Part shown: positions 4,093-52,600 of the stretch, in pieces | How positions within the stretch are numbered: position 1 is the stretch's first letter | How the letters are laid out: each line of letters begins with the position of its first letter | Notes under the pieces: generated by a model | Database searches by the model: none | Told to the model about the DNA's origin: nothing | Seen by the model: only the letters and a program-made list of their open reading frames with translations | Assembly (NCBI RefSeq): GCF_002234675.1 | Contig: NC_019864.2 | Location: 15,083,582 to 15,147,581, forward strand | Source: Oryzias latipes | Taxonomy: Eukaryota > Chordata > Actinopteri > Beloniformes > Adrianichthyidae | DNA: 64,000 nt | Direction: 5' to 3' | Translations under genes and position numbers: made by a program

Positions 4093-4180
4093 TGTGCTCC
4101 AACATCACATAGAAGAACCTAACAGAGGAGAAAAAAACAACAGGTGAAAACCTTTAATACTTTTTCATTTCAGAGCATTT

Positions 4181-4530
4181 AAAGTCCCACTCCAATTATC
4201 GTTTGATCTATTATAAAAGCCTTACCAGTAGTCGTTTAATTATGATTGTCCTTTTTAGCCAAAATTGATATAACCGTGTCGTTTTCAAAGACAGTTTCTG
4301 CAGAGCGGCAGCAGGACATTAAAAACTTGCCTATAAGTTGTGGAAAGGACCACTGGCGCAGAGCAACCCCGCCCGCCCTTCCCCTCCCTGTTGCAGAACG
4401 GCCAGCTTATTTTCTACATCATAAATAAGCTTCTTTTCCTAACTGCACTTTTTTTGTCTACTGCTGATTCACAACAAATTGAATAAAGATATACTCAAAA
4501 GTGTAATTTGAGCTTAAAAGGCCAACAGAA
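4181..4530 (+). repeat. Copy 1 of a dispersed TIR element (AAGTCCCACTCCAAT family), truncated
   Basis: It begins AAAGTCCCACTCCAATTATC and shares long stretches with the copies at 57081 and 61383: TTTGATCTATT, GTCGTTTTC, AGTTTCTGCAGAGCGG, CCGCCC, TTCTACATCA, TTGAATAAA. The right-hand end with the inverted terminus is missing. It lies in the 5' UTR intron of ctdspl2. No coding sequence is seen. Confidence 0.65.
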
Positions 4531-7654: not shown

Positions 7655-11368
<3,714 letters not shown>

Positions 11369-14105: not shown

Positions 14106-14313
14106 TTAACCCTTGTGCTATCCTATGACCCCACCTTAACATTGACGTGTTCTCCCTACCATGACAAAGGTGGATAAAGTGAAGAGGATTTCATGTGATC
14201 CATGGACACCAGTGAAGATCACAAATCATTGAAGAAAAAAGGTTCAGCGCACTGTCTTGTGGGGTCTAGATAACCCAACTCCCAATGTTAAAGTTCCCAG
14301 GCACAAGGGTTAA
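14106..14313 (-). mobile_element. TTAA-flanked MITE, piggyBac-like, copy 1 (inverted)
   Basis: A 200-bp element (14110-14309) begins CCCTTGTGC and ends GCACAAGGG, and is flanked on both sides by an intact TTAA. Its interior is the reverse complement of the copies at 24665, 48727 and 52006. TTAA duplication with CCC...GGG termini is characteristic of piggyBac-type transposition. There is no coding capacity. Confidence 0.75.
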
Positions 14314-14319
14314 AGTGTA

Positions 14320-21700: not shown

Positions 21701-24700
21701 TTCGACCAATTTTTTAAAACTAGGGAGTTTTTTTTCTTCCTCAGTGTGGAAGTTCTGCGGCTTGGTCACAGTTTCTTCATAAACTGGGACGTTAAGATGC
21801 ACAACCGTCAGACAAACACTGCAGCTGTAGCTCGCACCACCACCCTGAATGAGGAGCTTGGTCAGGTCGAGTTCATCTTCTCTGACAAGACCGGCACGCT
21901 CACTCAGAACATCATGGTCTTCAGCAAGTGCTCCATCAATGGAACAATTTACGGTATTAACTGACTCTCTATTCATTTGTATTTTGGTTTACATTTATGA
22001 AGAGATTTTACTTTACATTTATTTCACGAACAGTGCAGGTTAAACCTACAGTCAAAGGGAAATGAGCTCAAAAATGAAATATTTTAATTAAATGAATATA
22101 TTTGGCCAAACATTTTGACTTTAAAAACATCCACATTGACCCTGAGAATAAAATTAATTACAAAAGTACAGAACATTTCTTAGGTAACAGAATAAAAGTG
22201 AAAAAAATCTAACTTATTTGTAACATTTTCTTCTCCTAGGTGATGTCTATGATGAATTTGGTCACAGGATGGAAATCACTGAGGTAAGTAGTTCATAAGT
22301 ACGTATTCTTTAGCACAAGAACAATGCCTTTAAACATAGGTGCCTCTTGTCTCCCTAGAAAACAGCCTGTGTGGACTTTTCCTATAATCTCCTCTCGGAT
22401 GGTGCATTTAAGTTCTACGATAACACCCTGGTCGAAGCAGTGAAACAGAAAGATCCTGCAGTGCAGGAGTTTTTCAGACTGCTGGCTTTGTGCCACACTG
22501 TCATGTCAGAGGAGAGTGAAGGTAATCTGTGGCTAAGTTCATGTAACGGCACGTACAATTTACAGCGGCACTGAAAAGTACCATCAGTTTTCCTGGTTTT
22601 TACTCCATTTGTTATAGGAAAGCTGGTGTACCAAGCCCAGTCACCAGACGAGGCAGCGTTAGTCACTGCTGCAAGGAATTTTGGTTTTGCTTTTTGGGCT
22701 CGAACCCCAGAAAGTATCACTGTATGCGAGATGGGACAAGTTGTCACCTACCAGCTGCTGGCCATACTGGACTTCAACAACACGCGCAAGAGGATGAGTG
22801 TCATTGGTTAGATTTTCTCTCAAAATTGCAAAGCTATAAACTAAACTACAATGTTTAAAATGCACTGTAAACTAAATGTTTAATTATACAAGCAGTACAT
22901 TGTCTTTTTTTTCCAAAGTTAAACCTTAAGTAAAGATAACATTTAACGTGTTGCTCTACTTTGTTTTGTTCAGTAAGAGATGCACAGGGAAGACTTAGAT
23001 TATACTGCAAAGGAGCTGACACGATTATCTTTGATCTTCTGGATCCGTCCAGCACAGACCTCATGCACACTACATCCGAACAACTCAATGTGGGTCTCCT
23101 CTGCTTAATTAGCATTACATGTTTTCTCTTCTTTGGGGTTGTTTTTCTTGTTGTGTCCAATTCTAGATGTGTATTAGTGTCGTCCATCAGATGATACCTG
23201 CTGACTTTAATGCTCAAAAACACATTGCTCAATCTAAATGATTTAGTTTCAACTCTTAGAAAAATGTGAAAGGAATAATAAAAAAAATAATTATTTCTCG
23301 ATCATTACTTGCTCTTTGCTCTAGCTTAGCATACATTTTAAAAACCTTTTTTGATTTCTAAAATATGTTTGTTCAGACTAACTGAAGAGTTAAGCATGAA
23401 ATTGCCCAATGCTGTTTTTTTTACGCCTATTAATCGATTTTTCTCAAAAATTGTTTTCAAAGGAATTTGCAGGAGAAGGGCTTCGAACTCTAGCTCTGGC
23501 CTACAAAGATCTCGATGAGGAATACTGTGATGTTTGGATGAAGAAGTTTCTATTTGTCAGTGCCGTGCTTGAGAACCGTGAAGATCAGCTTGCTGCTCTC
23601 TACGAGGAGATCGAACGGGGCATGAAGGTAAAACTGACCTCCTTCTGTTAACATTTTTAAAGCGACTGATCCCATTTGAACTGTAGACTGACCGCTGACA
23701 TCTTTGAAGCTTCTAGGAGCAACAGCTATTGAGGACAAACTTCAGGAGGGAGTGCCAGAAACAATTTCCAAATTGAATCTGGCTAATATTAAAATTTGGG
23801 TTTTAACAGGAGACAAACAAGGTGGGTTTTTTATATTGAAGAAATCAGAATTTTGCTTCTAACTTGACATTATTTTTTTTATTATCACCTATAGTGAGCT
23901 GAACAGATTTAAACTGTAATTTTCAGAAACAGCAGTGAACATCGGCTACTCCTGCAACATGCTGCGAGATGACATGACTGATGTGTTTGTTGTCTCCGGC
24001 CACACACTTACGGAAGTGCAGCAGCAACTCAGGTGACCATCTGCTGATATTCTTGCACTAAATATTTCAGAAAAAGGGAAAGAAAGCTGATACTTTTGAG
24101 CAACATGACTCAAATGTAGGGCTGCACAGTGGAACAGTGCTTAACAGAAGACCCTGGTTCAAATCCCAGCAGGGGCCCCACTATGTGGAGACTGCTTGCT
24201 CTCCATGTGCATGTGAGGGATTCTGCAGGCACTCCAGGTTCCTCCTACAGTCCAAGAACATGATTTAACAGTTATTTGGTTTCCAGAAGTTGTCCCTATA
24301 GGCATGAGGTTGTGACCTGTTCAGGGGGTAACCTGCCATTGCCCAACAGGAGCTGGGTTGGGTCATGCAGCCCATGACCCTGAAAGAGATTTAGCAGGTT
24401 CTGAGGATGAATTGAGTTAGAGGCTGTTATGGTTACTGTATAGTTACAGGTACTGTCAAAAAAAAAAGTACATTTTATCTGCTTTAAATTTTCCCCCAGG
24501 GAGGCTAAAGAGCGCATCCTCAGTTTGAGTCGAGTCAGTGACGCAAGAAATGATGAGGAGAACGACATGTTTGCAGATGATTCAGTGTTTGAAGAAGCCA
24601 TCATAACAGAGTATGCCTTAGTCATCAACGGACACAGTTTGGTAAGAAAACTATCTTTTTTTAACCCTTGTGCTGTCCTAGGCACTTTAACGTTGGGAGT

Positions 24701-27700
24701 TGGGTCATCTAGACCCACTAGACAGTGCTCTGAACCTTTTTCTTCAATGATTTGTGATCTTCACTGGTGTCCATGGATTACAGGAAATCTTTCCACCTTT
24801 ATCCACCGTTGTCGTGGTAGGGAGAACACGTCAATGTAAGGGTGGGGTCATCTAAGATAGCACAAGGGTTACATGTTTATTTAGCCTTTTTTTTGTTTTT
24901 TGTCCAAGATGACTGTAGCCCTTGCTGTGCTGCTTGTTTACCTGCTGCTGACTTAACACAGTTTAATTAGCAGGAACCTGCTGTGCTCCTCTGGGTCATC
25001 AGCTCTACCTCAAGTTTTCATTAACATTCACTTTGTCCTCTCTTGCCACGCCTTTGGCAGTGTGCCTGATCTGCTGCTCACTGTGGATGCTGCTCCATGA
25101 TGCCTCTGCAGGGGTGATGCAAAGTGATGGCATGTTTAAAAAATGTGATGTATGTTTGCCCTGCAGGCTCACGCTCTGGAGCCCCAGCTGGAAATCGTGT
25201 TTCTGGACCTGGCCTGTTTGTGTAAAACTGTCATCTGCTGTCGGGTCACTCCGATGCAGAAAGCTCAGGTGGTGGAGCTGGTGAGGAAGCACAAGAGGGC
25301 CGTCACTCTGGCTGTGGGAGACGGAGCAAACGACGTCAGCATGATCAAGAGTAAGAAGGACCAGCATTAAGCCTAATTTGTTTGTCTTATATTGTTTTTG
25401 AAGTCCTACCAACATATTTTCCTTGTAAAAGGATCCATCATTTCATGCCTCTGGTTTGAAACAAATCTGTTCAAATCTGACAAGAAAGAATAAGCTTCTG
25501 CTTGATTCCTTTTAAATTTTTGGATGACTTAATGCATCAAAAGGTCAGCAGTGGCTCAGGCGGTTGAGCAGGTTGTCCAATGATCGAAGGGTCGGCGGGT
25601 CGATCCCCGCTCCCCCCAGCCAACTGTCGTTGTGTCCTTGGGCAAGACACTTCACCCTCCTTGCCTCCAGTGTGGCTCCACTGGCCTGTAAATGTGTATG
25701 AATCATCCCGGTGATGGTCAGAGGGGCCGGAGGCGCGAACTGGCAGCCACGCCTCTGTCAGTCTGCCCCAGGGCAGCTGTGGCTACAACCATAGCTTACC
25801 ATCACCAAGTATGAATGAGGAGTGAATGAATAATGGACACACTGTAAGTGCTTTGAATGTCTGGAAAAGCACAAAAGATAAATCTAATCCATTATTATTA
25901 AAAGCTTTATTGTTGCAAATAAAAAATCTGATTATGAGTGCAGGAGGTGAAGAAGAGAATAATTCTAGTAATTATTCATAAAATTTAGCAAAAACGGGTG
26001 TGTTCTTGTTGCTGCCATCCTTAGAGTAAAAGTGTAATTTTTTTATTTAACCGAAATTGTCCATAAGCTGAGTCTCAGTGGCTGAATATTTACCACCTGG
26101 GTAAAACCCTTACAGAGTAAACACTGGATCATGTGAAATATAAAACAGTATTTGTTTTTAAAAGATTTTCATGTAATCGCCCTTTCACTGGTATTTTATA
26201 AACTCTATTTTTCTAAATAAAGAAGGAAATAAAATTCAACTACAGTGAGCCTAAAGCTGTACGGCATCTGTGCTGCTACTTTGGTTTTGGAAAATAAATG
26301 TTCCCCCTAAAAATAAAGGGATTTTTCTATCTGAAAAAATTAAAACTAACAATAATTTTATTTGTTTTCAATAACATATCAGGAACCTGAAGCTGGAAAA
26401 AAGTCAAATTTCTCTTTAAACATGATTTTTGAACTCACAGAATGGCATAATTTTGTTTCTAATAGTTCTATAGCATTCGTTATATTCATCTTTTGATTAA
26501 CAAATATTTTTGCTGCATTTCATAGTTCAATGTCCTTCAAACTTGACCAGATCCTTATTGCGTGCTCCTCTTCTCAGCTTCTCATATCGGTGTTGGCATC
26601 AGTGGTCAGGAGGGAATGCAGGCTGTTCTGGCCTCTGACTACTCATTTGCTCAGTTTCGGTATCTGCAGAGGCTCCTGCTGGTACACGGACGCTGGTCCT
26701 ATTTCCGTATGTCCAATTTTTTAAGTTACTTTTTCTACAAAAACTTTGCCTTTACCCTGGTTCACTTCTGGTACGGCTTCTTCTGTGGTTTTTCAGCACA
26801 GGTGGGTGAATTCAAATCTATCCGTTTCAAAGCAATGTACAATTTTGGAAAACGGAATCGTTCATACATTTTTTGCTTTCACAGACTGTGTATGACCAGT
26901 GGTTCATAACCCTCTTCAACATTGTCTACACTTCTTTGCCAGTGCTAGCGATGGGACTTTTTGATCAGGTGAGGCCCTGATAAAAACAATAATAGTATAA
27001 TAATAATAATAATAATAATAATATTATGGTTTATAATCAAGACATAAGTGTAAAATATCATGCCTTTAAAGCTTCACGCATTTTTATGAAATAAAAAAAT
27101 CAAATCACTCAGCTAAATCATGCAATTACGTCACTAATAACTTCCCAAAATTGTGAAATGAAAAAAATAAATGACCAACAGAATGATTCTAAATGTTTCT
27201 GAGAGCCTAAATCCACAGTAAGACAATATACTTCGTGTATTTTTTGGTTATTTTCACTACTAAAATCAAAGCTGCATACAGTGTGGATGTGTTCCTCCAC
27301 TCACCATCTAATGTGCCACTTGAGCCCAGTGTTTTCGTAAAATGCCTATTATTACTGCAATGTTTCCTCGCTTTTGTCCCTGCAGGATGTTAACGACCAG
27401 AACAGCCTTCGCCATCCGAGTTTGTACAAATCCGGGCAGAACAATCTTTTCTTCAACAAGCGGCAGTTTTTCCTGTGCACCGTGCACGGCATGACCACAT
27501 CATTCCTGCTTTTCTTTATTCCCTACGGAGCATTCTCTGTTATGGTGAAAGAAGACGGGTCCCACTCCTCAGACCAGCAAACGTTTTCCATCACCATAGC
27601 AACATCTTTGGTCATTGTTGTGAGTGTTCAGGTGAGCCTCAGAACTTAGCGAGTCCAAACTGAGGCAGTTATAAAATCTCATACTAAAGTGTGATGCTTT

Positions 27701-29780: not shown

Positions 29781-32689
29781 TTAGTCCTCCAGGAAAAGTG
29801 CAGCTCCTCCAGCCGGCTTTGAAACAAACAAACTTTGTTTTTCCATAGCCGCCCTGCGGGGGTCGGGGGTGTAGTATGCATCTCTGACAGCTTTTAGGAA
29901 AGACTCCATCTTCTTACTGGGAACCATGGAGACGGCACAGCCTCCCCATCCGGCTCCTGTCAACCGGGATCCAACGGCCCCCGACTTTCTGTGTTCAGAT
30001 AAAACAGCAAAGATCATTTTAGAGATTGAATACTACAAAGTCAGCCCATTAATCTTTTTCTTGAATATCAGGATGGGCTGCAGGAATAAAGGAGAACCCA
30101 TTAAAATGCTATTTATCTCACTGAAGGAAAGCAAGCGTTTAATAGGTTACAATCAATACAAATCAATCAGTGTTTAAAAAAATCTAAAGGGAGTTCTTTT
30201 TTTTCCCCACATTCTCCTCTTATTTCACATCTTGCTGACATTTACTAAGTTGGGCTAAAAAAAAAATGCTGGAGTTTGACTTGTGGTTTTGAAGGAAAAA
30301 AATCCAAACTGTCCAGAAGGTGGCAGTAAAGGAAAACTCCAGCAACCTATCATGTTGATCGACCAAATCACAGTCAAGAGACTTCGGTGATTACAAGGTA
30401 AAAACTGAGAAAGTTAGTTAACAGATATTCTGGAGCAATTTTAACAACACTTCAAATGGATTTGTCACAGTAAAGTCATTCCCTGAGGCCTTTTTTACTG
30501 TAGTGTAATAATCTTAAAAACTCAGACAGCTTTGTGGGGCAATTTGTAAAACAGTTTGATAAATCATAAGAAAGTATCTTTCAGAAAAGAAAACCTACAG
30601 AGCAGCGAAATAATTTCTGATAAATCTCTAAAATGGTCAAATGTGACCTGCAGGACTTACAGACAGATGTCCACCAGTTGGTCCAGTTCAGGACAGCTGC
30701 ATTCATAGAGGTCTCTGCAGCTCACATGGCTCTGGTTCATCAGATCCCCCAGGAGACGTATGGCGTCGACCGGTTCAGAGTCACAGACGCTCTTGAAGCT
30801 CATCACCCGAGCAGCTTCACCGTACACATGTTTGCTCCGCTGGTAAAGCTTAAAGTGCGTTTCTAGGAGACAAGACGTAAGATGCAAATGTCATCTTTAG
30901 TGCACATGCAAAAATGATGTTCATGGAGTTTAAATAATATAAACTCACTTTTAACTTGACTATTAAGCTAAAGAAAAACACTTAAACTCCTATTCAGAGT
31001 TGAGATTTAAAGAAAATCTTGACCAAATAACTGAGTTAATTTGCAGATGTGAGCTGTTACACACCCTGCTGGGTGTTGGCACTCAGCACTTCTGTTGAGA
31101 ACTTCTCCGAGGTGATGCTCAGGAGCTTGCAGATCTCCTCCCGAGTGTACGGTTCAGGATGAAACACCTCCTCCACCATGGCCAGCATCTCCTCCAGAGA
31201 GGCATTCAGTTCAGTCTGAACCTGAGACAGCTTGGACACTTTGCTTGGGTCCAGACCACGATGATGCGCCAGCATCTGCATCCACACAAACAACACAGGT
31301 TCAAAACCAGTCGAATGAAGCTGGAGATTTTAAAAAAGACCAAAAATTAACTTTAGCATGCAGCTTCAAACTCCACCTTTGTGGCAATCCGGCACTCCAC
31401 CACACGGATGTTGTAGTGAGAGGAGGCGGCTTTGTTCATCTCCTTGCAACAGTTGGAAATCACAAATACAGCTCCCTCTGGAAGCTTCACATCAGTGGCC
31501 CGCAGAGGGTGAAACTCTATCAGCTTTGCCTGACAATAGATGCAAAAATTAATGCACACTTTTGTTTAAGGGTTACCTTTTAAGGAAAAAAGACTGATGG
31601 AAAACAGGTACACACAGTGCCTTTTTCTGCCAGAAAAGAAATGGACTGGTCCATGCCTCCCCCCTCTGTACCGATGTAGCGCTCACATTTGGCACATATC
31701 TCAGCAAGAGCCACCTGGAGGAATAAATGCACATAAACAGAGGGCTTCGAAGTATCTTCGTATTTATCCTCTTAGTAAGGATTTTACCTTGGAAAGGGAT
31801 TTCTGATTGGCTTCCATAGTTAACAGACCAGCACAACAAACCAAAGCACTTGAGCTCGATAGACCGGAACTGGGAGGAATAGATCCATCTACCACACAGG
31901 ACATCCCAGCCAAACGAGGGATCCCAAACTTCTCCTGCAGGAAAAAAAACACTCACAGCAACAAAAACTGTACAAATATTTATTTTCATTCCAGGTCAAT
32001 TATTTCAGACATTACATAACAAACACATCATACCTGGATACCTTTAACTCCACAGAGAAAATAATAATACCACTTTGGGTCGTCTTTGTTTATGGCGATG
32101 TCCTCTGAGCATGACACTTTATAATCTCTGCAGATGACCAAAAACACGTTTGTAATGCAAGAAATCCTAACAATCAACCATTTAGGAAGAATTAAAATGA
32201 TATCTGGTCTCTTACTTATATTGAGGATTTATGTTTGCCAGTTGGATCATTCCAGAGTTGTTTACAGACACAGCTGCAAGGATGTTCTGCTCAATGGCCA
32301 TCGGCAGTACAGAATAACCGCAGTAATCAATGTGTTCCCCTGGTAAATGTATTACAAGAAAATAAAGAAAGAAAAGTGTCCCAGTGAGATCAAATGACTT
32401 GTATTAATGAAAAAAACATCAATTTATTTAGTTATGATGATAACACAGAAAAATGGAGCATTTAGTTTACCTATTAGATTAACTCTTCCAGGTGCACACG
32501 TGTAGAATAGTGGGGATTCTCCATACTTGGCTTCAAATGCATTTTTCAGGTTTTTCAACCTGCAGATGACACTATATTCAAGTAAATAAGAGCCACACGG
32601 TTGCCTCTTTCCCTCAACTGTCCTCATTTGTCATCTCACCTTTGATTTGTAGCAATCGATGTCTTTATCTTGGGTGGGTTTGAGGCCAT
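29781..32689 (-). CDS. galk2: N-acetylgalactosamine kinase (GALK2, GHMP kinase)
   Basis: Coding exons: 32689-32640, 32559-32471, 32339-32216, 32127-32034, 31934-31788, 31714-31616, 31529-31377, 31275-31065, 30862-30661, 29988-29781; 458 aa, the human length. The enzyme phosphorylates GalNAc (and galactose weakly) at C1 in the cytosol. GHMP motif 1 [14 protein letters not shown] is at about 39-52, the ATP loop [14 protein letters not shown] at about 139-152, the catalytic Asp in [12 protein letters not shown] at about 190, and motif 3 [12 protein letters not shown] at about 396-407. The order and spacing match GALK2 better than GALK1 (for example [12 protein letters not shown] and QLVDIC blocks). 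The 3' UTR probably ends near AATAAA at 29575-29580 (minus strand). The codon at the last junction gives Leu (CT|A) where human has Arg. Confidence 0.96.
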
Positions 32690-33885
32690 TTTTCACCTGA
32701 TTTGGAATAATCTGGGTGTTTACGTGGTCCCACGACGTTAAATTGGGGAAGTGGTGAGCAGCCTGTGTCCTGTCAGCTGACTAAAATCCTGGATCTGAAA
32801 CCGCTGAACTCCAGTCAGCTAAAAGCGAAAACTCTTACTCAGGAAAGCGTGATTATCACGGGAAAGACTGATGCTGGAACAGGATTCAACGCTAAACGCG
32901 GAAGTCGGGGGCGGAGCTAACGTGTTTTTGTCCCAACTGAGCCACCGTACACAGAGGAGTGTATTTATATCAATTTTTTTTAAGGTAAACACATAGTTAT
33001 AGTCAATGAAAAAAAAACTTTAGTGAAAATATTTTTGACTTAAAAAAGACAAAAAAATAAAATAAGTCATTAAAAATACCATTTTTTTTTAATATTGACT
33101 GGACTACACTTCCCAAAAAATTAGTTTGTGTTACTATGGCAACTGTTCTTTTTTTGTTCCGGGTTTAGGAACCAAAGTATCTGCTTTGTTTTTTGCTACC
33201 TAAATTTCAAACGGCAAAAATGGGTAACATTAAAATTATGCGACCAACGGCAACACGAGACAGTGAAAGTTAGAGGTTGTGGGTTTTCTGCAGTACGGTG
33301 AAACTTTGCAATGGCTGGGCGCCGCTGATGCGCGGGAGTTTTCAAACTGGGCGAGTCCACAGACCGTGGGTCCGTTTAAAGAGGATGCTAATCTGTGTGC
33401 TACTTAGCCACGGTTAGCTTCGTACATTTCTTACTTTACAGTGTTGTTAAATGCTTGCAACGTTACGTTAGACGCGTTTCTATTTTTTTAAATATTATTT
33501 CGTGTAGCCATTTATGTTTCAACATGTACTTAGATAAACAGAATGCCACACGTAGTTTTAGCTAACTGGAGCCGCATCTTCAGATAGCCTTGTTTGTTGG
33601 TAGCGTTTGTTTTAACGCGTTCAAATAGGAGGATGTCCAGCTAGACAAAATACATTTTTTATCTTCAATCAGGTAATACGTTACATTGGTTAGCTTCTAC
33701 CTTCACCTGTGTGAGGTGACGCTCATTGTTTTTACCAATACTAGTAGTTAACCTTTGACACTAGCACGTAGCTCAGCTGGTGACTGAAGAAAAACATAGT
33801 CTAGACTGCTGTGTTTGAAAGGCAGGATAGCCACCTTATTCCTGTTTTGCTTCTCTTTTCCCAGCCCACCAGCAAGTTTTGCAGC
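32690..33885. promoter_or_regulatory. Head-to-head promoter interval between galk2 and cep152
   Basis: The galk2 ATG (minus, 32689) and cep152 ATG (plus, 33886) are about 1.2 kb apart. The cep152 exon begins at an acceptor (TTTTCCCAG at 33864), so its non-coding first exon must lie upstream, probably within 33240-33420. The interval 32870-33420 has the highest CpG content here and no TATA box, consistent with a shared or bidirectional promoter. The exact starts are not visible. Confidence 0.5.
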
Positions 33886-36800
33886 ATGTCCATAGACTTT
33901 GACAGTGCTGCTCTCCAAACTCAGCATGATGATGAAGAATATGACCAAGAGGACTACGCAAGGGAGCAAGAGGTGACATAATAATGTGAAAGCTAACCTC
34001 ATTTGTGAGATGTAAAGGGTGGATGAAAACTAGATCAACAAAAGCATCGGACTGCATCTTTAAAATCAAGGGAGCAAGAGGTGATATAAAATGATAATAT
34101 GAAAGCTAACCTCATTTGTTAGATATTAAGGGTGGGTGAAAATAAGATCAACAAAAGCATCGGACTGCATCTTTAAAATCATATTCAAACTGTCATTTAT
34201 TTCTCACGCCTCAATCTGTTGAGCCATGACTGTGAGCTATTATTGGCTCCAGGGAGGACCTCCTTTCAGGTGTGTCATAAGCTTAAACAAGCTCTGCTGT
34301 CTCTATTTAAGTTATTTGGCCTCTCATGCCTGACCCCACTACACGGAACAAAGCAGAAATGCTTTAGCTAAAATTGTAATGAATTTGGCAGGACTCTGCA
34401 AGTTTATTTTGAAATTTTAGCCCAATTTCAAGCAAGCCAGTGAAGTGGGAAATGTTGACCACCAGTAATCGGAATGTTTCTGCTCCAGTTAACCTTGCTA
34501 TATGTTTGGTCTGAACAATGGAGTTCTTTTTGGAGCAAAACAGAGGAATAACACAGGGAGCTGACGGCATGCCAGGCAGGTTTTGAATATTTCCAGCAGA
34601 AGGTCATCTCTCCAGACACTCAGACTGCTGATGGTTGTGTTAGAGCTCGTGCAGAAGAAGAGTTGTCTCTGTAGTCAGTTTTTTAAATTTATAATTGCAC
34701 AAATGGGTCCTTCTATTGTGGAAGCTGTGGATGATTTGAGGACCATTCAACAATCCTTGTGGGAAGTAAGTCCAGCAGACACTGCTTGTTTAATCGTCTC
34801 TTTTTTTCCAGCACAGAGAGAAGCTATTTTAAACAAAATCTTCTCAATAGTTGGTCTTATACAGAACTTTATTGCAAATAATGATTAACCAGTAACGGTT
34901 TCACATTGTTGAGAAGCTGTTAGTGGAGGTTGAGGCTTGTATCTCCCTTTCTTAGCTCATCAAGTATAAACAATCATAATTCAAATGTTTAAAAATACAA
35001 AATAAATCAAAATATTATTATTTTGCTGTAGTTACAGTGTAACTTCAAATGAGCTTTTATGAAAATATGAGTTTAACTGCTGCTTCAGTGTGATTGATCT
35101 TGTGCAAATATAAAAGCAGCTTCTGTGCCTGTCATTGATTACCTCCGTGTGCTTTAGTTTTTCAACCTGTGTTACTTTATAACTCTGTTGCTTGGCAACC
35201 TCAGTGACTCATATCTGTGCTGTGTTTTCTCTGCAGTTGCACCAGCTGCTCACAGACCTGCCTGATGACATGCTGGAGGACAGCGTGGACTCCTCCTCCC
35301 CTGAGCTGGAGTGCTCCACCTACAGCAATAAAAACGCAGCCAACAGGTAAATGCATGCGGTGGACACATTAGTGCCACCGATTAAAGGTAAATTGCTCTG
35401 TTGTTTGATGCATGTTTGGTTTTTCAGCCCACGGGCTCAGTGGAACCAGCAGTGGTCAGATCACACCCACACACAGGTAAGACCTCACTTTTCCCTCTTG
35501 ATAGATTTTTGCTTTCACCAATTAAACAAAAGATGAAATTATCATTTTGTTACTTTTTGGAGAACTTTGAGGATGACTATGATGGAAGCTCGCATGGTGA
35601 TTATGCCTATAAAGATGGAGTAGCTGATATTAATGGGCATCACAGTCAAAATCAGCCCCTGCCTCATACCTGGACTCAGGAACATCAGTTTGGACCGGAG
35701 GATTATGAATACACAAACCGATGTACAGAGAACGAGGATTTTCCCATTCACTTTGAGCCGCAGTCAGCCCCGGAAAGAACTGAAAATCACATGGAATATA
35801 ATGGAGTAGAGGACTACACAGATGAGCACAACTCCAGAAACCTCTTTCAAGTAAGTGATCAACAAAGAGAGGCTGCTGAGGTGGCTTGTCAAACAGATGA
35901 GACTGAAGTCAACGGTGTGATGATTTCTGCCGAAGATAAAATATACTCAACATGTGTGAATATATTTTTACCCTTTGGAGATCTTAGTTACAGTTTGTCT
36001 GTGTTTCTGAAAACAAACAAAATAACAAGGTTTTTTTTATTTTTACCAGCAGTCAGTGGAGCTTAGTTCTATCTTTTTGAGTGAATTACAAGTAATCTCA
36101 GTTGTTAAATTATACAAAGATTTAGGAAATTATATCTACAAACATAACATAAAAAATGAAATGATGCCAAAAATGCTCATAATGTTTCAATATATAAGCT
36201 TTTCTCATATTTTTTTGTGGAAAAAATGGAGAAGAAAGTAAAATGATGCCTATTGAAAACTGAAGTTTTTATGGGTAAATGTTTTACAATATATCTTTAA
36301 ATTATTTGTAATTTTCTCCCATTTTTTTTAAAATATTTTTCTGTGTTTTTTTGACAAAATTTGAAATGTGAGCAGGAGGATCAGCGTCTAAATCAGTATA
36401 AGGTCGGCTACAATCCACAGCATCCCGCCCATCTACCAAAGATGTTGAACTCTCAGTCCGCTCAGCAAGAAGGCCCCTATGACCAGCTGCAGAGACAGCT
36501 CCTGGATAAAACCCAACGTGAGTCTTGCAAAAGTTATTATTTAGAAATTAGGCTTCTGTGTGTGTTATCTGCTTTTCTATATTTTTTGCGTTTGTTCATA
36601 GTTTTCTGGTATGGATTTGTGTTTCATAAGTTTTAGTCTCTGCTCTTGTACTTTCGTCTTTTTTGTTGCGATGAGTAGCTGGGATAAATGCGAACCTGGT
36701 GTAATTTAGAAAGTAGAATGTTCTGCAGGAGTTTGATGCTTCTGACTAGATCAAATAAAATAAAGGGTAAACATTATAAACAAAGTGGCAGAAATAGTAG

Positions 36801-39800
36801 AGAGTCTTGTTTTTCTGTCTCTAAGGCTGGATTTTTCTAACTAGAAAATATGTGTCAAACTTTTGGTAAATCTCAGGCAGCCCCTGAAATGTAGTCCCAG
36901 TTTTACTAACTAAACTTTAGTTTTTACTAAGTAAAATCTAGATTAGTGTTAGTTTATATGTCAAAGAATTTTAGGTAATTGCATGTGATTAAAACCGCTC
37001 ACAGTCAGACGTCTGATCTGCAAAAGATATAGAGATAGAGAAGTTCAAACCAAGACTTTTGGCGCTTTAAAGCTCTTGTAAGTAAATGAAAACGACCTCA
37101 ATCGCAGTGCTCATAAGGCCAGACAGTTGCAGATAAAGTTCTCTGAAAAGATCGCCTGTCGGGTTAGTTATAGTTCTTCACACAGTATTCAAAAAATTGT
37201 AGGAAGTTATTGTGTTGATTAAGACTTATTTCTTTTTACTTTTTAGAAAATGCGGATCAGGAGCAGATTTCTCAGCTTCAGATTTTGAACAAAGCTCAAC
37301 AAAGACAGATTGAAGACATGGAGCGGAAGCTGGAGGATTCCCGCCGGAGTCTGCGATACCTGGAGCATCAGTTTGCAATTGTCAAGGGTACGTTTTACAC
37401 ATGGATATAGGTTTAATTATCACTTTATGCTATATACTATTATAGTAACCTATATATTGGAGGAAGATATTTCCATTGAATCTAAGGTTGTTATTTAAAA
37501 TATGAGATTTCCTGGGAAACCTTTATGTTATTAGTGGAATTCTTCTCTGATAAGACCAGTTGTTTGTCTTCCAGTTTCTTCTTCACGTACATCTTTTCCT
37601 TGTTGTTATGCAAATTTTGGAATGGTATCTTACATTTTCCTCTTGAATAACAGATGAAAAGGACGGCCTTGCAGTCAGTCTAAAGGAATCGAGTCGACTG
37701 GTTGAACAGGCCAAAGACAGAGAGGCTCAGATGCAGAAAAAGCTAACAGCAGTGGAGCAGCAATTACAGACCCTCAATGAGCGAGACCAGGAGGTAAACA
37801 CCGTCTTTTATCTTTATAGTTATTTCAATTGGTATTGTTCATACTGCATTTATTTTTTTCCTGTGTTGGCAGAACGTAAAGAAACTGGGGATGGCAGACG
37901 CAGCTGTGGACAGCATGAAGCAGCAGATGCTGGAGCTTTGTCGCACTGATACCCTGTCCAGAGTGCGGGAGCAACATGACAGAGACATCACCGTCCTGAA
38001 GGAGCAGCACAACGCAGCACTGCTAGCACTGCAGCAGAATCTAGACTCGGCCTCTCGGGCTCTGAGCGAGCAGGTCTGCAGTTTTATCAAGCTGGACATT
38101 CATTTACCTCAATCAGACGTTATTTACGGTATACGTGATTTATTTATTGTTGTTTTTCTGATGCCTTCAGATTGATGCTGGTCAGAGGTTACGAGAGCAG
38201 GTGAAGCAGCTGGAGCGCCAAAGAGAAGACGAGCAAGTGGAGAGGGCTGGAGTCGTTAATTCTCTTACTCAGCGCCTGGAGGAAAGCCAGCAGCAGTGTG
38301 CCAGGCTGCTTCAGACAAGTGAGTGAAGAAGGAAGCAAGTAGTCGGTGTGTTCTGTTTACTTCCCTCTCACCGGTGAACCTTTTTTTCTGCAGATTCAGT
38401 TCAGGAGATGAAACAAATGGAAATCAAGCTGCAGCAGGCTCAGTCTTCCAAAGCACTGAGTGAAAACATGAACAAAGCTTTACAGGTTTGCTCCTGATTT
38501 ATCTGCCACTAAATCCACTCAAAGAGCCTCACCTTGAAGATCTACAGCATGCGATCAAAGTGTTTAATCTCCACGGACATCTGTGTGTGACTGTGTGTCA
38601 TTTGCTTTTAAGACAGACAGTCTGGCGGACAGACACTAGTGGCAATGTGGCCGTCCTTGAACGCTGCATTAACCTTTTGAGTGTAAATAAAACCCTGCAG
38701 CTTAAACTGTGTTTGTTCTTGTCTTAAAGGAGGACATGGCTGATCTGAAGGAGCAGATCACTCTGTATGAATCTGCTGTGAAACATGGAGTTGTGGCGCT
38801 AGACCTCAGCAGTGAGTGGGACCATCATCTGTCCGAATCCTGTTTGGATTTGGGATTTAAGAAGGCAAAACGGAAGAATGGGATCCTTCACAGGTGTTCT
38901 ATCATCACTCCCCTGTCTCCATCTGCTTCTGCTCTGTCTGAGCCTGTGGGCTTTCATCTGAAATCCAAATGAAATTTTTTCTTTTCACCTTCCCTGTAGT
39001 GTTGTGGCCCAGCAAGCAGATTCCAAGCTGCCCAAGGACGAGGCTTTAAGGCTTCTGCGGGCGGAGATGCAGCGCTGTCTGGGGTGCTTAAAGGGGAAGC
39101 GGCAGAAGATTGGTCAGCTGCAGGAGGAACTCCAGCAGCGCCAGGCTCAAGTTAACCAGCTGCAGACGGAGTTGGAGGAAGCAAAGCTTAACTCTGCTGT
39201 GAGAACTCCTTAAATCTATTTCTGTTAAACCATGTTACGTGCAGTTCCTAAAATATTAAGAATAAAAAGCATTTTAGTATAAAAGGTCAATTATTGTAAA
39301 CCATTTCTGTGAAAAGGGGAAAGAAAGCCAGATGAAGACGATGAGGACTCCGGACACTCAGGATTTAATTAAGCTACAGGAAGAAAAGCGGTGCCTGCAG
39401 GAGCAGCTGGAGGTCAGATACATTTGTATTATTGCTGTTTGTTTTGTTTGAATTGTAATTTAAAGTCTTTCCAACGTGCAGCTTCTTGAAAAGCAAAACA
39501 AGGAGCTGAAACTGAGCGAAGAAAAGGTAAAGTGTGCCAACACTGAACTGTGCACCAAAATGAGGCAAATGATCCAGGAGCTGGACCAGGAAAAGCAAGA
39601 AGCAGCAGAACGGTAATTCCAAGGAGACAAGAACATAAAGTTCTGAACATAAAGTTCAAAAGGATTATAAGCTACGTCTGCCTTTAATGTTTTTAAGGTC
39701 TGAGCGGATTAATCAGCAGTATCGGGATGATGTGGTGAACCGGCTCAGAACCGAACTGGTGCAGGAACATGAAGCTCAGGTTGAAGAGCTGACTGCACTT

Positions 39801-42800
39801 CACCAGCAGCAGGTTCAGCAGCTCCAGTAAGACCTCTGCTCCTGTTGTTGAACCCTGCTGTGGATTCAAACCATGCGCGTCTTACTCCTGTGTCTGTTGT
39901 CTTCACAGAAAGCAGCTGTCAGAAATCAACGACAAAATGTTAGCCGTGCAGGAGTGTTACATATCCGTCTGCAGAGAGAAGAGCTTGCTTGAAGACACAA
40001 TCAGCAACACGCAGAAGGAGAAGGAGACTGAAATCCAGCAGCTAGTGGACTCTCGTGTGGCTTTAGTTGAAGCTGAGTGGAAGGCGAAACATCATGAGGT
40101 TCATTATTTAAAACATAAAAAATAACCTTCAACCTTTATCAATAGTAATAAATATTGTCAAATGTGTTTTTCTTTTCTCTTCTTGGCAGATTGAGAAGGC
40201 CTGGACTAAGAAGCTGAAGGACTCTAAAGATCAACAAAGAGAGGCTGCTGAGGTGGCTTGTCAAACAGATGAGACTGAAGTCAACGGTGTGACGAGTTCT
40301 GCCGAAGTGCTGGACTCCAGGCTCACTGCCCAGAGACAGCAGCTCCAACTGGAAGCTGACAGAGTGCAACGGCAAGCTGTGGAGGATGCCAGGAAACACG
40401 TCCAGAGAGAGCTGCAAAAGAAGCACCTGCAGGACATGGCAAAGCAGGTCAGGGGAGACGCTCTAATCTCAGTTTAGTTTTCCTGATCTCTCAGTAGAAG
40501 GAAGCATTTACCACTGAACTTGGTAAAGATGATTTCCAGCCATTCCCACACACGGCCATGCCTCTGTCATGATTGTTGTAAGTCAAGGCGCTTTTATTTT
40601 GAAGGATCTGATGTTTTGTTTTTTTGGCTCATTGTTGTGGGTCAGGTTGAAGGAGCTGTAACTCGTGCTTATAATCGCTGGATCGAGGATCTGCCTTCTT
40701 TACCTGAATACAAAGCCCGTCTGCAAGCAGAAAAGGAAAAGTGGGAAATGTCGCAGGAAAAACTCAGAAAGCAGAGAGTATGACATGTTTTTATTGATAA
40801 CTAAGTTGAAATTGTGTATGTTTTTTTCTTTGATGATGATTATTTTATGTTCCTGTAACTTGTTGCATTTCAGCTGTCCCAGGCTCTGAAGGATACAGAG
40901 GAGCAGGGGCACAGGGACCAGCCGGAGCAGCACAGCTCTGGAGCCAAGAGGGTGGAGGAGCTTCAAGAGGAGATGGGGGTTCTCAAGAGTCAACTAGAAG
41001 ACGCAGCAACGGAGCACGCTGCCCTGCTGAAAGCTGAGCTGGCCGCAGCCAGAGCGGCCTGGAACAGAGACAAACAGCAGGAGATCTCCATCATCCAGGC
41101 CTGCAGCGAGCAGGCGTGTCAGTCTAAGCTGCAGGAGCAAAGCACGAGGATGGAGCAGGCTCTGCAGCAGGCCCGAGAGGACGCTGAGCTCCAGAAGAAA
41201 GAGCTGCTCCTACAGATGGAGGCCAGACTTGAGCAGACATTGAGGGCGCGAGAGGAAGAGTGGAGATGCCAGCTCTCAGAGAGGAAGACACTCCAGCAGA
41301 TGAGAGCAGAGTTTCTTGCAGAACTTCAGTCTGGACTTGCAGAAGTTCACAACAGACTCTTTGAAACCACTAAAACGGATCGGGAAGAGACTGACAGCAG
41401 AACCAGTGGATCCACCTCAGAGGCGACCATAACCTGCATCATTGAAGCCTCCGTCAGAGATGTGGTGAACAGAGCTGTTTCAGAGGCTGAAAAGGAGTGG
41501 AAAAGAGTGAGTTACAGAGTAAAAAGGGATGTCTAATTGGTGATCTGGTAAAGAGTTTTTCCCTTCAAAAGACGAAAACGTTTTTAAGATTTCATTTCCA
41601 CCCTCACAGATGAGCGAGGAGAAACTGAAGTGGGCCCTAAAAGAAGCTCAGGATCAGCATGCAAGAGAAATCCGCAAAGTTCAAAGTAAGCAGTTTACTC
41701 CTCAGAGAGAGCTGCTCAGCTCATGGAACGCTCCTCCAGAACATAACCCGTTTATCCTGCAGGCTCTTCATCCCAGAGGAAGGAGCAGCTGCGCTGCAGC
41801 AGAGACTGCTCGGAGGCGCTGAGCAAACTGCAGAAGAAGAACCAGGAGCTGCAGAGACATTTAGAGAAAGCCTGCCGCCAACTTCAGCATAGCATCCGGG
41901 AACACAAAAGATCCATGCAGCATCTAAAAGGCAGGTCATTTCCAAACATTCTAACATTTTTATGAGCTTTATTGTAATTATTTCTGACTGGTTCATTTTC
42001 AGATGAGCATGAAAGAAAACTACAGACGATGTCTTCAGATCATCTGCAACAACTAGAGGAAGTGAAGAGAGTCGCAGAAACGTCTGGGTTTGTACTCTTT
42101 TCTCAATGTTTCTCACTTAAAATCAAACATTTGCCTGTTTCCTGTGTGAACTAAATATCCTAAGTTTGATACGTCTTTGTATGAATGTAAAACTGTTGAT
42201 CGTTTTGTTTTGCGCATTATTCTTGCTTTGATTGCTTAAAGTAAACCATTTCAAATCAAATCAAAAATATACTATATAGCACAGTAACTAATTCTTTTTT
42301 TAACTTTGAGCTTTTAGGTATGGTACTTTAATTGCACTACTACATCGTTGTTCAGAACCTTTATTTATGTTTATTTTAGCATTTAATTTCATTTTTTGTT
42401 GGCAGATCTTAACATTCAGTTGTGTGCATTTATGTAGAAAAAACAAAGACAAACTTTTTGTAACATTCATATTCTTAATTCTATTCTGGGAGATTTAAAG
42501 TGAATTATAAACGTAATATGCATTTATTTTTTTAAACCATTTTTAGACAGATTTTCTTTCATATAAATCTTTAGATATTTTTCTTTTCAGCAGAAGTTCT
42601 GACCAACAGAGTCTTCATCAAGGCCTGGAGGAGATGAAGCAGCAGTATCTGACCACCGTAGAGAAGATCAGAGGTTTGTTTCATTCGTTCTCTTTGCATT
42701 ATGTCATCCAGAGGGTCTCCACTCACCAAAGTTATCCTTTAAATTCTTTCCTCTTCCTTTTTTTTCTGTCAGGAGACATGTTGCGTTACCTCCAGGAGAG

Positions 42801-43965
42801 CCGGGAGCGTGCAGCAGAGATGATCCGTACTGAGGTGCAGCGGGAGAGGCAGAACACAGCCAGAAAGATGCGGCACTATTATCTGACCTGTCTGCAGGAG
42901 TTACTGGAGGACGGGGGGAAGACGACAGGGCAAGACACTATAATTGCCCTGAACCTGTTTGCTGGCCTCGCTCCGGCTCCTCGGGCTAATTACATCGATC
43001 CTCCTGTTCTCTGCAGAGCTGAAAAGAAAATCATGAATGCTGCAAGCAAGCTGGCGGCTATGGCTAAAGTGCTAGAAACTCCAATCAGAGCTAAATCGGT
43101 AAAGAAGCCTGGTTCATCAGGTGAGTTCTGCAGCACCAAACCAGCATCTTTTTCCTTCAAAATATTTCATGAGGTCTGATTTTGTTTCGTGGTGTTGGCA
43201 GCTGTGTCCACCGCCATCTCTGGCAGCCAGCCGAGCAGAAGCGCAGCTTTCAAGAAGAACCCGTCGGCAGTACCGGAGCGTCCAGAGACGGGTCCAGAAG
43301 GAAGATCTCACGAGGGGAAGACTTCTGCTGATTCAAGGCAGAAAGCTAGTGCTCCAGTGAAGACTCAAGTTTTTAGCTTCCAGGAGGGCCCTGCATGTGA
43401 CCAAGGCTTGGAATCCAGACTGCCTCGCACAAATCCATCATCTCCACCCAAAGCAGCTACTCAGTTCCACGTAGATTTTGTGAACTTGTCTGTGAGTGGC
43501 AGAAACCTGGAGCTGTACCTGCAGGGAGGAGAACCAAGCAAAGCGGACGCTTCCCCAGAGCCAGCATCACGATGGAAACCTTTCCTCGTCCAGGAGCCTC
43601 CCGTCAGAGAGCAGAAACCCACAGACTGGACTGCGACGAGCTGCGCCGTAAATCTCCCCAGACTGTCCGACTTTGGGAGAGTCGAACCTGTGAAGCCTTT
43701 TTCTGTGTCCACCGTCAGAGAGGCGGGAGAGCTGGACAGCCTGACCTCAGACACGCCCCACCTAACATTTTATGAGGAGATGCCCAGGAAGCCGGAAACC
43801 TTCACCCCCGCTAAGAAAAGCGCTCACAGAGAGCCGACGCCGGGCTCAGAATGTGGGGCGAATCGTTCTGGACCTTTGTTCTCCGAGCTGAGACGGCGGC
43901 AGCAGGACAGCGGCTTTGACAGTCCGTTTTACCAGAAAGGAGGAGCAAAGGACGGACAGGTATGA
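33886..43965 (+). CDS. cep152: Centrosomal protein of 152 kDa
   Basis: There are 26 coding exons: 33886-33972, 35237-35346, 35428-35476, 35563-35850, 36376-36517, 37247-37387, 37654-37793, 37873-38073, 38171-38318, 38394-38485, 38730-38893, 39000-39198, 39317-39412, 39482-39612, 39698-39826, 39909-40098, 40190-40447, 40646-40777, 40874-41506, 41610-41685, 41763-41930, 42003-42087, 42591-42673, 42773-42929, 43017-43120, 43202-43965. This gives 1588 aa. It is a pericentriolar scaffold that recruits PLK4 for centriole duplication. The acidic N-terminus ([20 protein letters not shown] then [15 protein letters not shown]) matches the PLK4-binding region. Long coiled coils follow from about residue 260. 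Conserved CEP152 blocks include [25 protein letters not shown] (about 793-797), [33 protein letters not shown] and the terminal [10 protein letters not shown]. Introns 41931-42002 and 42930-43016 use GC donors. The shorter length than human comes mainly from diverged central and C-terminal regions. Confidence 0.95.
33961..34181 (+). repeat. cep152: Tandem duplication spanning the cep152 exon 1 splice donor
   Basis: Unit 1 (about 33961-34068) and unit 2 (about 34069-34181) are roughly 90% identical. Both start AGGGAGCAAGAGGTGA and end GCATCGGACTGCATCTTTAA. Unit 1 carries the last 12 nt of coding exon 1 and its donor (GAG|GTGACA); unit 2 holds a decoy copy of that boundary (GAG|GTGATA). Confidence 0.85.
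35857..35935 (+). repeat. cep152: 79-bp near-identical copy of cep152 coding exon 17 sequence
   Basis: Positions 35857-35935 match 40229-40307 at 77 of 79 bases. The copy starts 6 nt after the end of exon 4, immediately behind its GTAAGT donor, and it is open in the same frame as exon 4 ([19 protein letters not shown]). The 40229 copy sits in the exon equivalent to the conserved CQTD region of other CEP152 proteins, so it is the likely source. Confidence 0.9.
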
Positions 43966-47400: not shown

Positions 47401-48722
47401 TTATTTCCCATGGATCACCAGTAATAAGGCTGTGAATTTACATGATTAAATCAGTGGCCCTCTAGAACGCTGTTTGCCTGAGCTGAATGTGCGATGAGGC
47501 CACTTTCATCTACATTCAGTCCTTCAGCATAATGTTTTAACCCGAAGGGTCATAGCGAGGAAAAACTGATTTAGAGTAAACACATTCAAAGTTAAGAGAG
47601 AGAATGTGGAGTGAGCCGCATGAACAGAAGAATAAGTGTAAAAAGGCTACAAAAGATGTCTGCTGTTTTTGTATTTAGAGTCAGGCTTGTCTGTGAACAG
47701 CTCGTCCCACCGCTGTGGGGTCACAGCAGACGGAGCATGACTGGTCAGTTTGTTGGCAGTGTCAATGAGGGGATGGGTGGTGTGAAATTGCAGAGAAATA
47801 GAAGTGGTGTGAAATAGAAGAGAACTGGGCGCTGATGGATGCTGCTCTTTAGCTGGGAAGAACATGTGACGCCAGAGTTCTACAAAATATGAAGCCTGAG
47901 GGAGCAAAGGCATTTCTGCTCCTATGGGCCTACGGGGAGATCAAGATTCCTGAGAGACCAACTTTCACACTCCTGCTTCTGAGAAAGACCCATCCCATCA
48001 CAACCACCACCACCCCAGACAAGGGTTCTGCTCCTCTTATCTTGTTGCCCTCCACTGAGGGAGGAGACAAGAAAGCAACTTTACAGTTGAGGATAACAAA
48101 AGGACTGAACGCATATCAAGTTTTTCCAGTTGTTTCCTTCCTGCTGCGCTGCGTTCCACAGCAAGTATGTTTGTTTTTACTTTTCATTGACTCATCAAGT
48201 GTCTTCTTGTGGAAAGCATAAAGATTAGCTGTTTTTTTTTAGCAGCCTTCTGATCGAATCCTCCTTTAGTTTATGACAGGAGGGTCAAAACATTTTGCAA
48301 AGGGGTTGAGATTTGGTGAGGGGAAAATAAGTGAGGGCAGACCTGAAAATCTATTTTTATAACATAGCATTTAAATTTGGTATTCAATAAACATTTTATT
48401 GTAATGGCATACTTTTTTCTTCTCATAGAACAAATAGATCTAAATACTTTTTTACCTAAAGTTCTCTCAATTTGTCCATTTTTTGCATTGTTCATACCCA
48501 GCTATCTCATCTTAGTTAAATGTCTCGTTTAGTAGTGCCTCCTTATAGGGAATTAAAAAAAAAAGTAATCCTGCCAACCACAATCAAAAAGTCGTAAAGT
48601 AACAGTTTATGGAAAAGGGCTGGAGGACGAATATTTTTGATTTTTAGAAAAAGAACCTTTTCACCGTGGCTGCATTTGGCCCCTTTGGCCGGACTTTGGA
48701 CATGCCTGGTTTATAACTCAAT

Positions 48723-48935
48723 TTAACCCTTGTGCTATCCTAGGCACTTTAACGTTGGGAGCTGGGTCATCTAGACCCACTAGACAGTGCTCTGAACCTT
48801 TTTTCTTCAATGATTTGTGATCTTCACTGGTGTCCATGGATTACATGAAATCTTTCCACCTTTATCCACCTTTGTCATGGTAGGAAGAACATGTCAATGT
48901 AAGGGTGGGGTCATCTAAGATAACACAAGGGTTAC
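48723..48935 (+). mobile_element. TTAA-associated MITE, copy 3
   Basis: The element at 48727-48931 starts CCCTTGTGCTATCCTAGGCA and ends ACACAAGGG. The left flank is TTAA and the right flank TTAC. It is near-identical to the copies at 24665 and 52006. It lies intergenic, about 400 bp upstream of the slc27a2 TATA box. Confidence 0.75.
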
Positions 48936-49312
48936 AGATTTTGATTAGATTGTTCACGTGTTCAGTTTATACTCTGATGATTCTGATAAAAGTTTTAATT
49001 TCCTTTGTCTTCCTTTTTACTTGTTTATTAATCTGAAATACAGAGACTCCTTCTAAATTTCAGCTCAATGCGATAGTAAGATGTGTTGTTGTTTTTTTAC
49101 TAGAACAGAACAGCCCACTATTGTAAGATGACAGAGATATTTGAGCGCACAGTGGAGTCTTGTGTAACAGCATCTGCTCCTCCCCCCCATACATTTGCAT
49201 ATACTTCCCCTCCAGTCTAACTCTTTATGACTTTTTCCATCATTTTTTTTTTCTCCTGAGGACGTCTTTAAGGTTGATGTAAGCGTTCCAGAAGCAGCCA
49301 CTTATATAAGTG

Positions 49313-49629: not shown

Positions 49630-52600
49630 ATGACCATGTGGTTCACTGTTCTCGCCGGGCTGGTCGTCCTGTCGTTGTCCTACGTGAAGGCTTTTTGTCC
49701 GCACCTCCAGGCGGACTGCGTGTACATCCTGAGGAGCCTCGGATTGGGCTTGAGGCTGCTCAAATACAGGAGGAGGAAACCCATCTACAGCGTCCTGGAC
49801 TGCTTCTTGGATGCGGTGAAGAGGCATCCCACCAAGACCTTCCTGCACTTTGAAGGACGCGAATACTCCTACGAGGATGTGGACAGGCAAAGCAACAAAG
49901 TGGGCCGAGCTCTGCAGGCTGAAGCCCGGCTGAAGGAAGGGGACACCGTCGCGCTGTTCCTGCCCAACGAGCCCTGCTTCGTGTGGACTTGGCTCGGTTT
50001 GGCCAAGCTGGGCTGCCCGGCTGCTTTGCTCAACTTCAACATCCGATCCAAGTCCCTGCTGCACTGCTTCTCCTGCTGCGGGGCCAAAGTCCTCATCACC
50101 TGCACAGGTGAGACACCGTGTGTTCACACAGTTAATGATCTGTGCCATCAACAGATATGTCAAGTTCAAAGTTCAGCAGCGAGCCACCGACCTCTCAGTG
50201 TCCAAGTTGCGCAACAAGTGGTTATGTTACGCGCGGAAAAATATTTGAGAGAAGGAAAGACATTTTTTTTCAAGAAAATAAAAAAAAAATCTGTCATTCA
50301 ACCTCATACACAAACCATCCAAACATACTCATATTGAATGAAGTTCTTGTGCTTCTGCTTCTCATTCAATCACATGAAACCCCTCCTGCACTGATGGTGT
50401 GACTCCAGAGGAGCCTGACCTCTCTTTCAGGCTTTAATAGTATTAAGCTATTAACATTACCTCCACTGTGTCTTACTGCAGCATAAACATTATGCTCTTG
50501 AGTCACAGTAGAAATGCAAGCATAAATGCATGAACCTAAATTTCTGAAACTTTTTCAATCTTTTTTTCTTTTAAATGGCTTTTTTTTTCTAAACAAACTT
50601 TAGCTGCATATTTCTTAAGATTTGGCAGAAAAATGAAGGCCAAAGTAACTCATTGTACATTTTGGTCAAAATGATGAACATTTAAAACATTTTAAAATAT
50701 AGGTTTTGAGCTGATGCTTTGACCTTTTGTCTGTGTCAACATCCCTCTGACACAGAAGGCATCGGCTGAACTCAGAACATCGGGTTTCTCAATCAGCTTT
50801 AGGGAATTTTTATTGGGTGAAAGAGCAGTTTTTGACGAGTAAGCGTACATTATGTTTTTTTCTGAACTCCATCTTTTTGGAGAAACGTTTATGCTTACTG
50901 GAACATCAGCGCAGTCACCGTTTCTGCAGATTTGAGGGTCCTGAACATCTTCTTTTCCTCCAGCTCATCATTTATACAGTTCATGAAGCACTTTTTATTA
51001 TTTTTTAAACAAACCATTTTGATTCACTTTATTTAGAAAGCTGCAATTCCTAATTAAGGTTGTATCAAGCTACATCAGAAAAATTCAATTTATTACAAAT
51101 AATCCACAGTTAAAACTAAATTCCATTTAGTTCAGACCAATGTGGCCAAATTATTTGACTATTTAGTATTGACCTTCAGAAGTGACCAACAGATTACAAG
51201 AGTGTTCAGTGCAACCCCTCTTGCTGAGCAAGCAAAAGGCAACTCCATCCATCCCAACTGGAAAACATGGAGAAACTTCCAGCAGAGCCAGGATACGTAT
51301 GAATGACCATCTGTTGGGACTGGTTGGGGTCTGAGAAGTACGGTGACCCTGAAGAGGAAATCACACCAACAAATCCCTCAATGCAAAAAAATATTACACA
51401 TCACGACAACAATTAAAAAAAAAAACAATCAAATAACACAACATTACATTTTAGAAACCAAAACCCAATTTGGAAAGCAAAAGTAGTATCCAGAAATGAA
51501 ATGTCAATAAAATGAAACACAATCTGAAACTGGAAAATGGGACATCGCTACTTGGATGATGACGTTTGAGTTTTTTCAAATGGGTCTTTAATACATTTAA
51601 TGATTAGTACGGAGCATACTCAGTATTGGTTCATGCCAAAAAAACCTTTGGCCAAAATTAATGGACAAACGTCATCATCTAATCAATGATGTCCCATAGT
51701 CCCTATCTTTTCCAGCTTCTTTATTGTGTTTCATTTTCTAACATTTTCTTCTGACTTCTTTCCTGTCTGGAAACTACTTTTGTTATCCAAAACATTTATT
51801 TTTATTTTGTTCAAATTGATTGAAATTTTATTTTGATTTCCAAAATGTAATTTGTTTTTTTTTAATTATTATTATTAATTTTTAACTGTCGTGATTTTCA
51901 ATATGCTTATGCTACACTTATATTTTCATTTGTTGGTGTGATTTGGGGCTCAGGGCCACCATAGAGAAGCAGGAAAAAGACAGAAACACAGTAACGTGTG
52001 TGTAACCCTTGTGCTATCCTAGGCACTTTAACATTGGGAGTTGGGTCATCTAGACCCCACTAGACAGTGCGCTGAACCTTTTTTCTTCAATGATTGGTGA
52101 ACCTCACTGGTGTCCATGGATTACATGAAATCTTTCCACCTTTATCCACCTTTGTCATGGTAGGGAGAACACATCAATGTAAGGATGGGGTCATCTAAGA
52201 TAGCACAAGGGCTATATCAAGCATACGGTCAGAACTGTATTACATTCATGGATGCGAAGGAGAGGAAAAGTCTGCATTGAGGATGGTAAGGGGCAAAAAA
52301 AGTTTTCCCTAATATAGAACAGTTCCAGTCTATCCAGACAAACTGTAAGTTATGGTTTGTCTGGTTGGGCTTGAGTCATTGATAAGCTTAGAAGGCCACT
52401 TTTCAGTTTGGTCTTTGAAGTAAGGGTGGAGAACTGATCTTTCATCCAGTTTAGCTGAGCTTCTGTGATTAAAGTGAATAAATCATTAACTAGAACTGAA
52501 AAATTTTCTTGAACAGACTTAGGACTCAAACTAATCTGCATGATAAACCTTAGGAGACTCCAAAGCATGTAGAGAAACTTGCATCTGGTCATATGCGTGC

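Follow-up and report, generated by a model that had tools for sequence, protein, structure and literature searches.

The cep152 gene lies within the window, that is, the whole 64-kb stretch of DNA that was analysed. The gene model was assembled manually on the basis of reading frame and splice signals and comprises 26 exons in a single frame, encoding 1588 residues, with 25 introns that together amount to 5313 bases. The name cep152 and the numbering of exons 4 and 17, as given in the original prediction, were upheld by this model and by database matches: exons 1–3 code for 82 residues, of which residues 1–59 match PDB chain 4n7v_C, "Centrosomal protein of 152 kDa" (E = 2.8e-16), and for exon 1 there is a match to Pfam PLK4_bind_CEP152 (E = 2.4e-17). 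Judged by frame, introns 21 (41931-42002) and 24 (42930-43016) seem to be of the GC-AG type (AAG/GCAGGT and AGG/GCAAGA, respectively). The adjoining stretch at 30654-32690 on the minus strand is presumably galk2 (galactokinase 2), a resemblance recognised by eye. The features on which the analysis is centred, namely a copy of part of exon 17 at the beginning of intron 4 and the elements around it, are collected in Table 1.

Table 1. Coordinates of the features at and around the insert in cep152 intron 4 (positions in the window).
Feature	Position	Strand	Remarks
cep152 exon 4	35563..35850	+	Hand gene model; starts and ends in phase 0
Predicted hairpin	35841..35872	+	Minimum-free-energy fold of 35821-35960
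Exon 4 splice donor GTAAGT	35851..35856	+	Intact, directly left of insert; score 9.27
cep152 intron 4	35851-36375	+	525 bases; 79-base copy at its very start
79-base inserted copy, cep152 intron 4	35857..35935	+	77/79 identity to 40229-40307
Candidate in-frame cryptic donor GTCAGT	36052..36057	+	Frame 0; would extend exon 4 by 201 nt
cep152 exon 17	40190..40447	+	Hand gene model, 258 bases
Source segment within cep152 exon 17	40229..40307	+	26 residues plus one base; inside open coding frame
cep152 exon 26	ends 43965		Hand gene model

Extent and uniqueness of the copied segment

The two segments share a longest exact run of 64 bases and differ only at 35921 and 35924, and the similarity has sharp edges, with none found further out on either side. 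When the window was compared with itself by BLAST (E ≤ 1e-6, dust on), the copy appeared in one of the 16 non-self pairs listed, with E = 1e-31; alignment and self-BLAST thus agreed with the identity of 77/79 bases, within the same gene, in the same orientation and 4.4 kb apart, that had first been claimed. The first 24 bases of the copy, used as a probe with up to three mismatches, were found at two places in the window, and two places were obtained in none of 100 shuffles. Similarly, when the cep152 exon model was divided into 18-base words and these were searched on both strands, exact recurrence in the window was limited to words of the source segment. Chance is ruled out as the cause of the similarity. 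A dispersed repeat, against which the original prediction had proposed a check, is ruled out within the window, as self-BLAST and the 24-base probe gave two places only. Beyond the window, the exon 17 protein gave 191 pattern matches and no confirmed one against bacterial and archaeal genomes, and a 33-base probe gave no match against viral contigs; both results say little, the collections being without fish genomes. The copy was named nowhere among the matches listed for the literature on templated insertions (including polymerase theta and zebrafish), on cep152 in teleosts, on exon fragment or dispersed duplication and on short duplications.

The 10-mer GATCAACAAA, with which the segment starts, was found at four places, two of them in intron 1 (34033 and 34146), where base composition would predict 0.23 over both strands. 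Two of these occurrences belong to a single tandem duplication and the other two to the studied pair, which in effect leaves two independent ones, and the recurrence in intron 1 was set aside as chance, although this is not proven. The tandem duplication itself (33959-34181), in which a unit of about 110 bases is repeated at 88.7% identity across 115 aligned columns, takes in the donor of cep152 exon 1 together with roughly 14 bases of exon sequence before it, placing a second donor copy (GAG/GTGATA) in intron 1, the use of which would meet an in-frame stop (GTG ACA TAA). The presence of two duplications at donors in one gene, at exon 4 and, more diverged, at exon 1, could be coincidence. Elsewhere in the window, four dispersed copies of about 215 bases were found at 14107-14317, 24660-24874, 48719-48936 and 52003-52217, with pairwise identities of 88–96% and one of them inverted, and these probably represent a mobile element. 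A further set of dispersed repeats (4178-4509, 10943-10997, 53401-53547, 57078-57634 and 61384-62005), with 70–93% identity between aligned pieces and both orientations represented, may, at a guess, be one family.

Direction of copying, junctions and the exon 4 donor

Exon 17 was identified as the source because the segment is part of an open coding stretch whose frame would be broken by the loss of 79 nt (79 mod 3 = 1), and also because one of the two differences is a CpG in exon 17 and a TpG in intron 4, CpG to TpG being the usual direction of decay. The other difference is a G in exon 17 and a T in intron 4. Copying from intron to exon is ruled out by the frame loss that exon 17 would suffer without the 79 bases and by the CpG/TpG difference. 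The divergence between copy and source is 2.5% (two differences in 79 bases), with a 95% interval of 0.3–8.8%. The word "recent", which had been applied to the duplication, is therefore fair but loose, given so few differences and so wide an interval.

Strict microhomology was 0 bp at both junctions, the base to the left being T at the copy and A at the source, and that to the right A and T, respectively; the junction microhomology that characterises MMBIR was accordingly absent, the adjacent bases differing on both sides. If one gapped base is allowed, re-joining of the copy's end (CCGAAG) with the AAG of GTAAG would be conceivable at the right junction, a weak indication. The two 20-base flanks of the copy have no word of at least 5 bases in common, hence no target-site duplication, and the sole common word of at least 4 bases, TCAA, lies away from the junctions.

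The copy begins immediately after GTAAGT, as had been stated at the outset. When donors were scored with a matrix derived from the other 22 GT donors of the gene, the others being scored leave-one-out, the exon 4 donor was found to rank third of 23 GT donors leave-one-out and fourth of 23 in-sample. The boundary had been called striking. It does fall exactly at the donor hexamer, but the first 8 bases of introns account for about 4% of all intron positions, before allowing for the post hoc choice of this feature, so the coincidence is mildly unusual and gives no strong reason to assume a mechanism linked to the donor. Selection would mostly have removed any insertion that fell in an exon or a splice site.

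Explanations for the insert

The origin of the copy was weighed against several alternatives, of which an artefact of assembly or polishing is highly improbable, as the two internal differences and the unrelated intron sequence on both sides would be unlike a simple mis-join. Least probable of all, to the point of being nearly negligible, is a mobile-element or retrotransposed insertion (a class 1 templated insertion). The segment is exonic, and an RNA template would therefore be possible, but the exonic origin says little, because 28% of random 79-mers of the gene (2770/10002) fall wholly inside one exon. None of the class 1 (LINE-1 mediated) marks, which are a target-site duplication of at least 5 bp, polyA and a polyadenylation signal, was found with the insert: neither AATAAA nor ATTAAA occurs in its 79 bases, and no polyA run was seen by eye at the junction. 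A nascent exon extension, in which some transcripts would skip GTAAGT and use a downstream donor such as that at 36052, thereby gaining 67 codons including a second copy of a 10-residue block, is very unlikely, even though the exon 4 frame is open and a usable in-phase donor lies downstream. The copy lies on the same strand as its source and has codon phase 0 whether read in the frame of exon 4 or in that of exon 17, a one-in-three outcome by chance. The exon 4 frame was described originally as open for 50 or more codons downstream, and this was borne out, with 71 open codons counted from 35851 up to a stop at 36064-36066. GTAAGT and the insert cover 28 of these; the 43 further codons are not unusual, since 203 of 2672 start points (8%) in the gene's longer introns (above about 200 bases, with the remainder of intron 4 among them) gave runs of at least 43 open codons. 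The candidate donor (GCA/GTCAGT) is of average strength, with a score of 6.14 that lies above 11 of the 22 other GT donors (leave-one-out), and it is outscored by the exon 4 donor (9.27). Moreover, the 67-residue extension gave a single Pfam match, to LisH_2, with E = 0.068 and 12.7 bits against a cut-off of 27. An extended exon 4 isoform is possible and would most likely be minor, and a coding role for the insert is likewise possible given the average-strength in-frame donor downstream.

The predicted RNA structure bears both on this extension and on the likewise very unlikely alternative that the insert was kept because it changed splicing, its pairing with the end of exon 4 exposing the donor in a hairpin loop. 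The predicted stem joins CCUCUUU, close to the 3' end of exon 4 (35841-35847), to AGAGAGG in the insert (35866-35872), and the donor is placed in an 18-nt loop. The mean unpaired probability of the donor was 0.82 with the insert and 0.43 in the modelled empty site (60-nt flanks), and over four flank sizes the values were 0.79–0.83 and 0.43–0.49, respectively. With the insert, the exon 4 donor showed the highest unpaired probability of the gene's 25 donors, and few controls matched its accessibility: one did so among 300 shuffled inserts and two among 300 random 79-mers, the latter drawn from 37248-41478 with exons and introns mixed and the source segment not excluded. Against a selected change in splicing, the test was chosen after the fold had been seen, and the fold of the whole region (35821-35960) was no more stable than shuffles (z = −0.50, a stability reached or exceeded by 56 of 200 shuffles). 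The accessibility values, moreover, come from naked-RNA folding with a modelled empty site and are a lead only. On this modelling, the insert is suggested to expose rather than hide the exon 4 donor, which points away from skipping and thus also against the exon extension. The chance of an effect on how exon 4 is spliced is considered small. Even less likely than either of these two alternatives taken alone is their combination, by which a repair patch made of the gene's own coding sequence would have re-shaped the adjoining splice site, pairing with the end of exon 4 and holding the donor in an open loop with an in-frame coding block behind it, and opening a putative way to a longer exon in which a peptide is repeated.

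An intragenic templated repair insertion from exon 17, spliced out and probably near neutral, is considered the likely explanation. According to this explanation, a break or stalled fork would have arisen in the germ line immediately downstream of the donor of cep152 exon 4 and would have been repaired with a 79-base patch templated by exon 17, 4.4 kb further along the same gene. The template was presumably reached by DNA template switching, a cep152 transcript being less likely. The patch would have come to rest within the intron, leaving the donor hexamer intact, and would be spliced out with the intron. Its direct basis is the copy, the source, the edges and the intact donor; that repair made the copy, that this took place in the germ line and that it is without effect is inferred. 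Near-identity, sharp edges, the lack of another copy in the window, the exon-to-intron direction, the absence of a target-site duplication and of a polyadenylation signal, a length within the range reported for insertions at induced breaks and the strong intact donor speak for this explanation, whereas the strict junction microhomology of 0 bp and the average-strength in-frame donor downstream speak against it. Of the two origins suggested in the original prediction, templated repair was supported as the simplest route, and a nascent exon extension found little support. If real and germ-line, the insert would be a clean natural case of repair dropping a gene's own coding pieces into introns, in frame and beside a splice site, and such repair patches would be raw material for new exons. 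Taken alone, it is one short scar of an ordinary kind, with a putative effect only.

Comparison with known templated insertions

Templated inserts made by polymerase theta are usually much shorter than 79 bp. The inserts described by van Schendel et al. (2015) are germ-line events with a template near the break, as is proposed for the cep152 insert, but they differ in being copied from the immediate vicinity of the break, and they are seen with small deletions (PMC4490562). The MMBIR-type templated insertions (MMB-TI) of Osia et al. (2021) are also similar, in that a template is copied before a return to the original site, and differ in their junctions, as strict microhomology at the cep152 insert is 0 bp on both sides (PMC8421209). 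There, microhomology of at least 1 bp was reported for 138/155 and 135/148 germ-line junctions, and microhomology of 2–12 bp was given for 80% of junctions among 103 events on chromosome 1 (PMC8421209). Furthermore, the yeast signature behind MMB-TI copies from within 100 bp, whereas the cep152 source lies 4.4 kb away (PMC8421209). Microhomology-driven switching would appear to fit the cep152 insert poorly, as far as its sequence indicates.

A likeness was also found to the class 2 insertions (TSI/TSIP) of Onozawa and Aplan, which show no target-site duplication or polyA and, when obtained at induced breaks in experiments, measure 73–414 bp (PMC5110952). The cep152 insert shares with them a short patch of 79 bp, within that range, and the absence of a target-site duplication, polyA tract and polyadenylation signal. 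It also shares a source left in place, both copies being present in the window at 77/79 identity (PMC5110952). Class 2 TSIs are, however, defined there by a distant template, unlike the cep152 insert, whose source is 4.4 kb off in the same gene, and the insert also appears to differ in showing no clear junction microhomology (PMC5110952). The cep152 insert works like a class 2 TSI but is not filed as one, its source being only 4.4 kb away.
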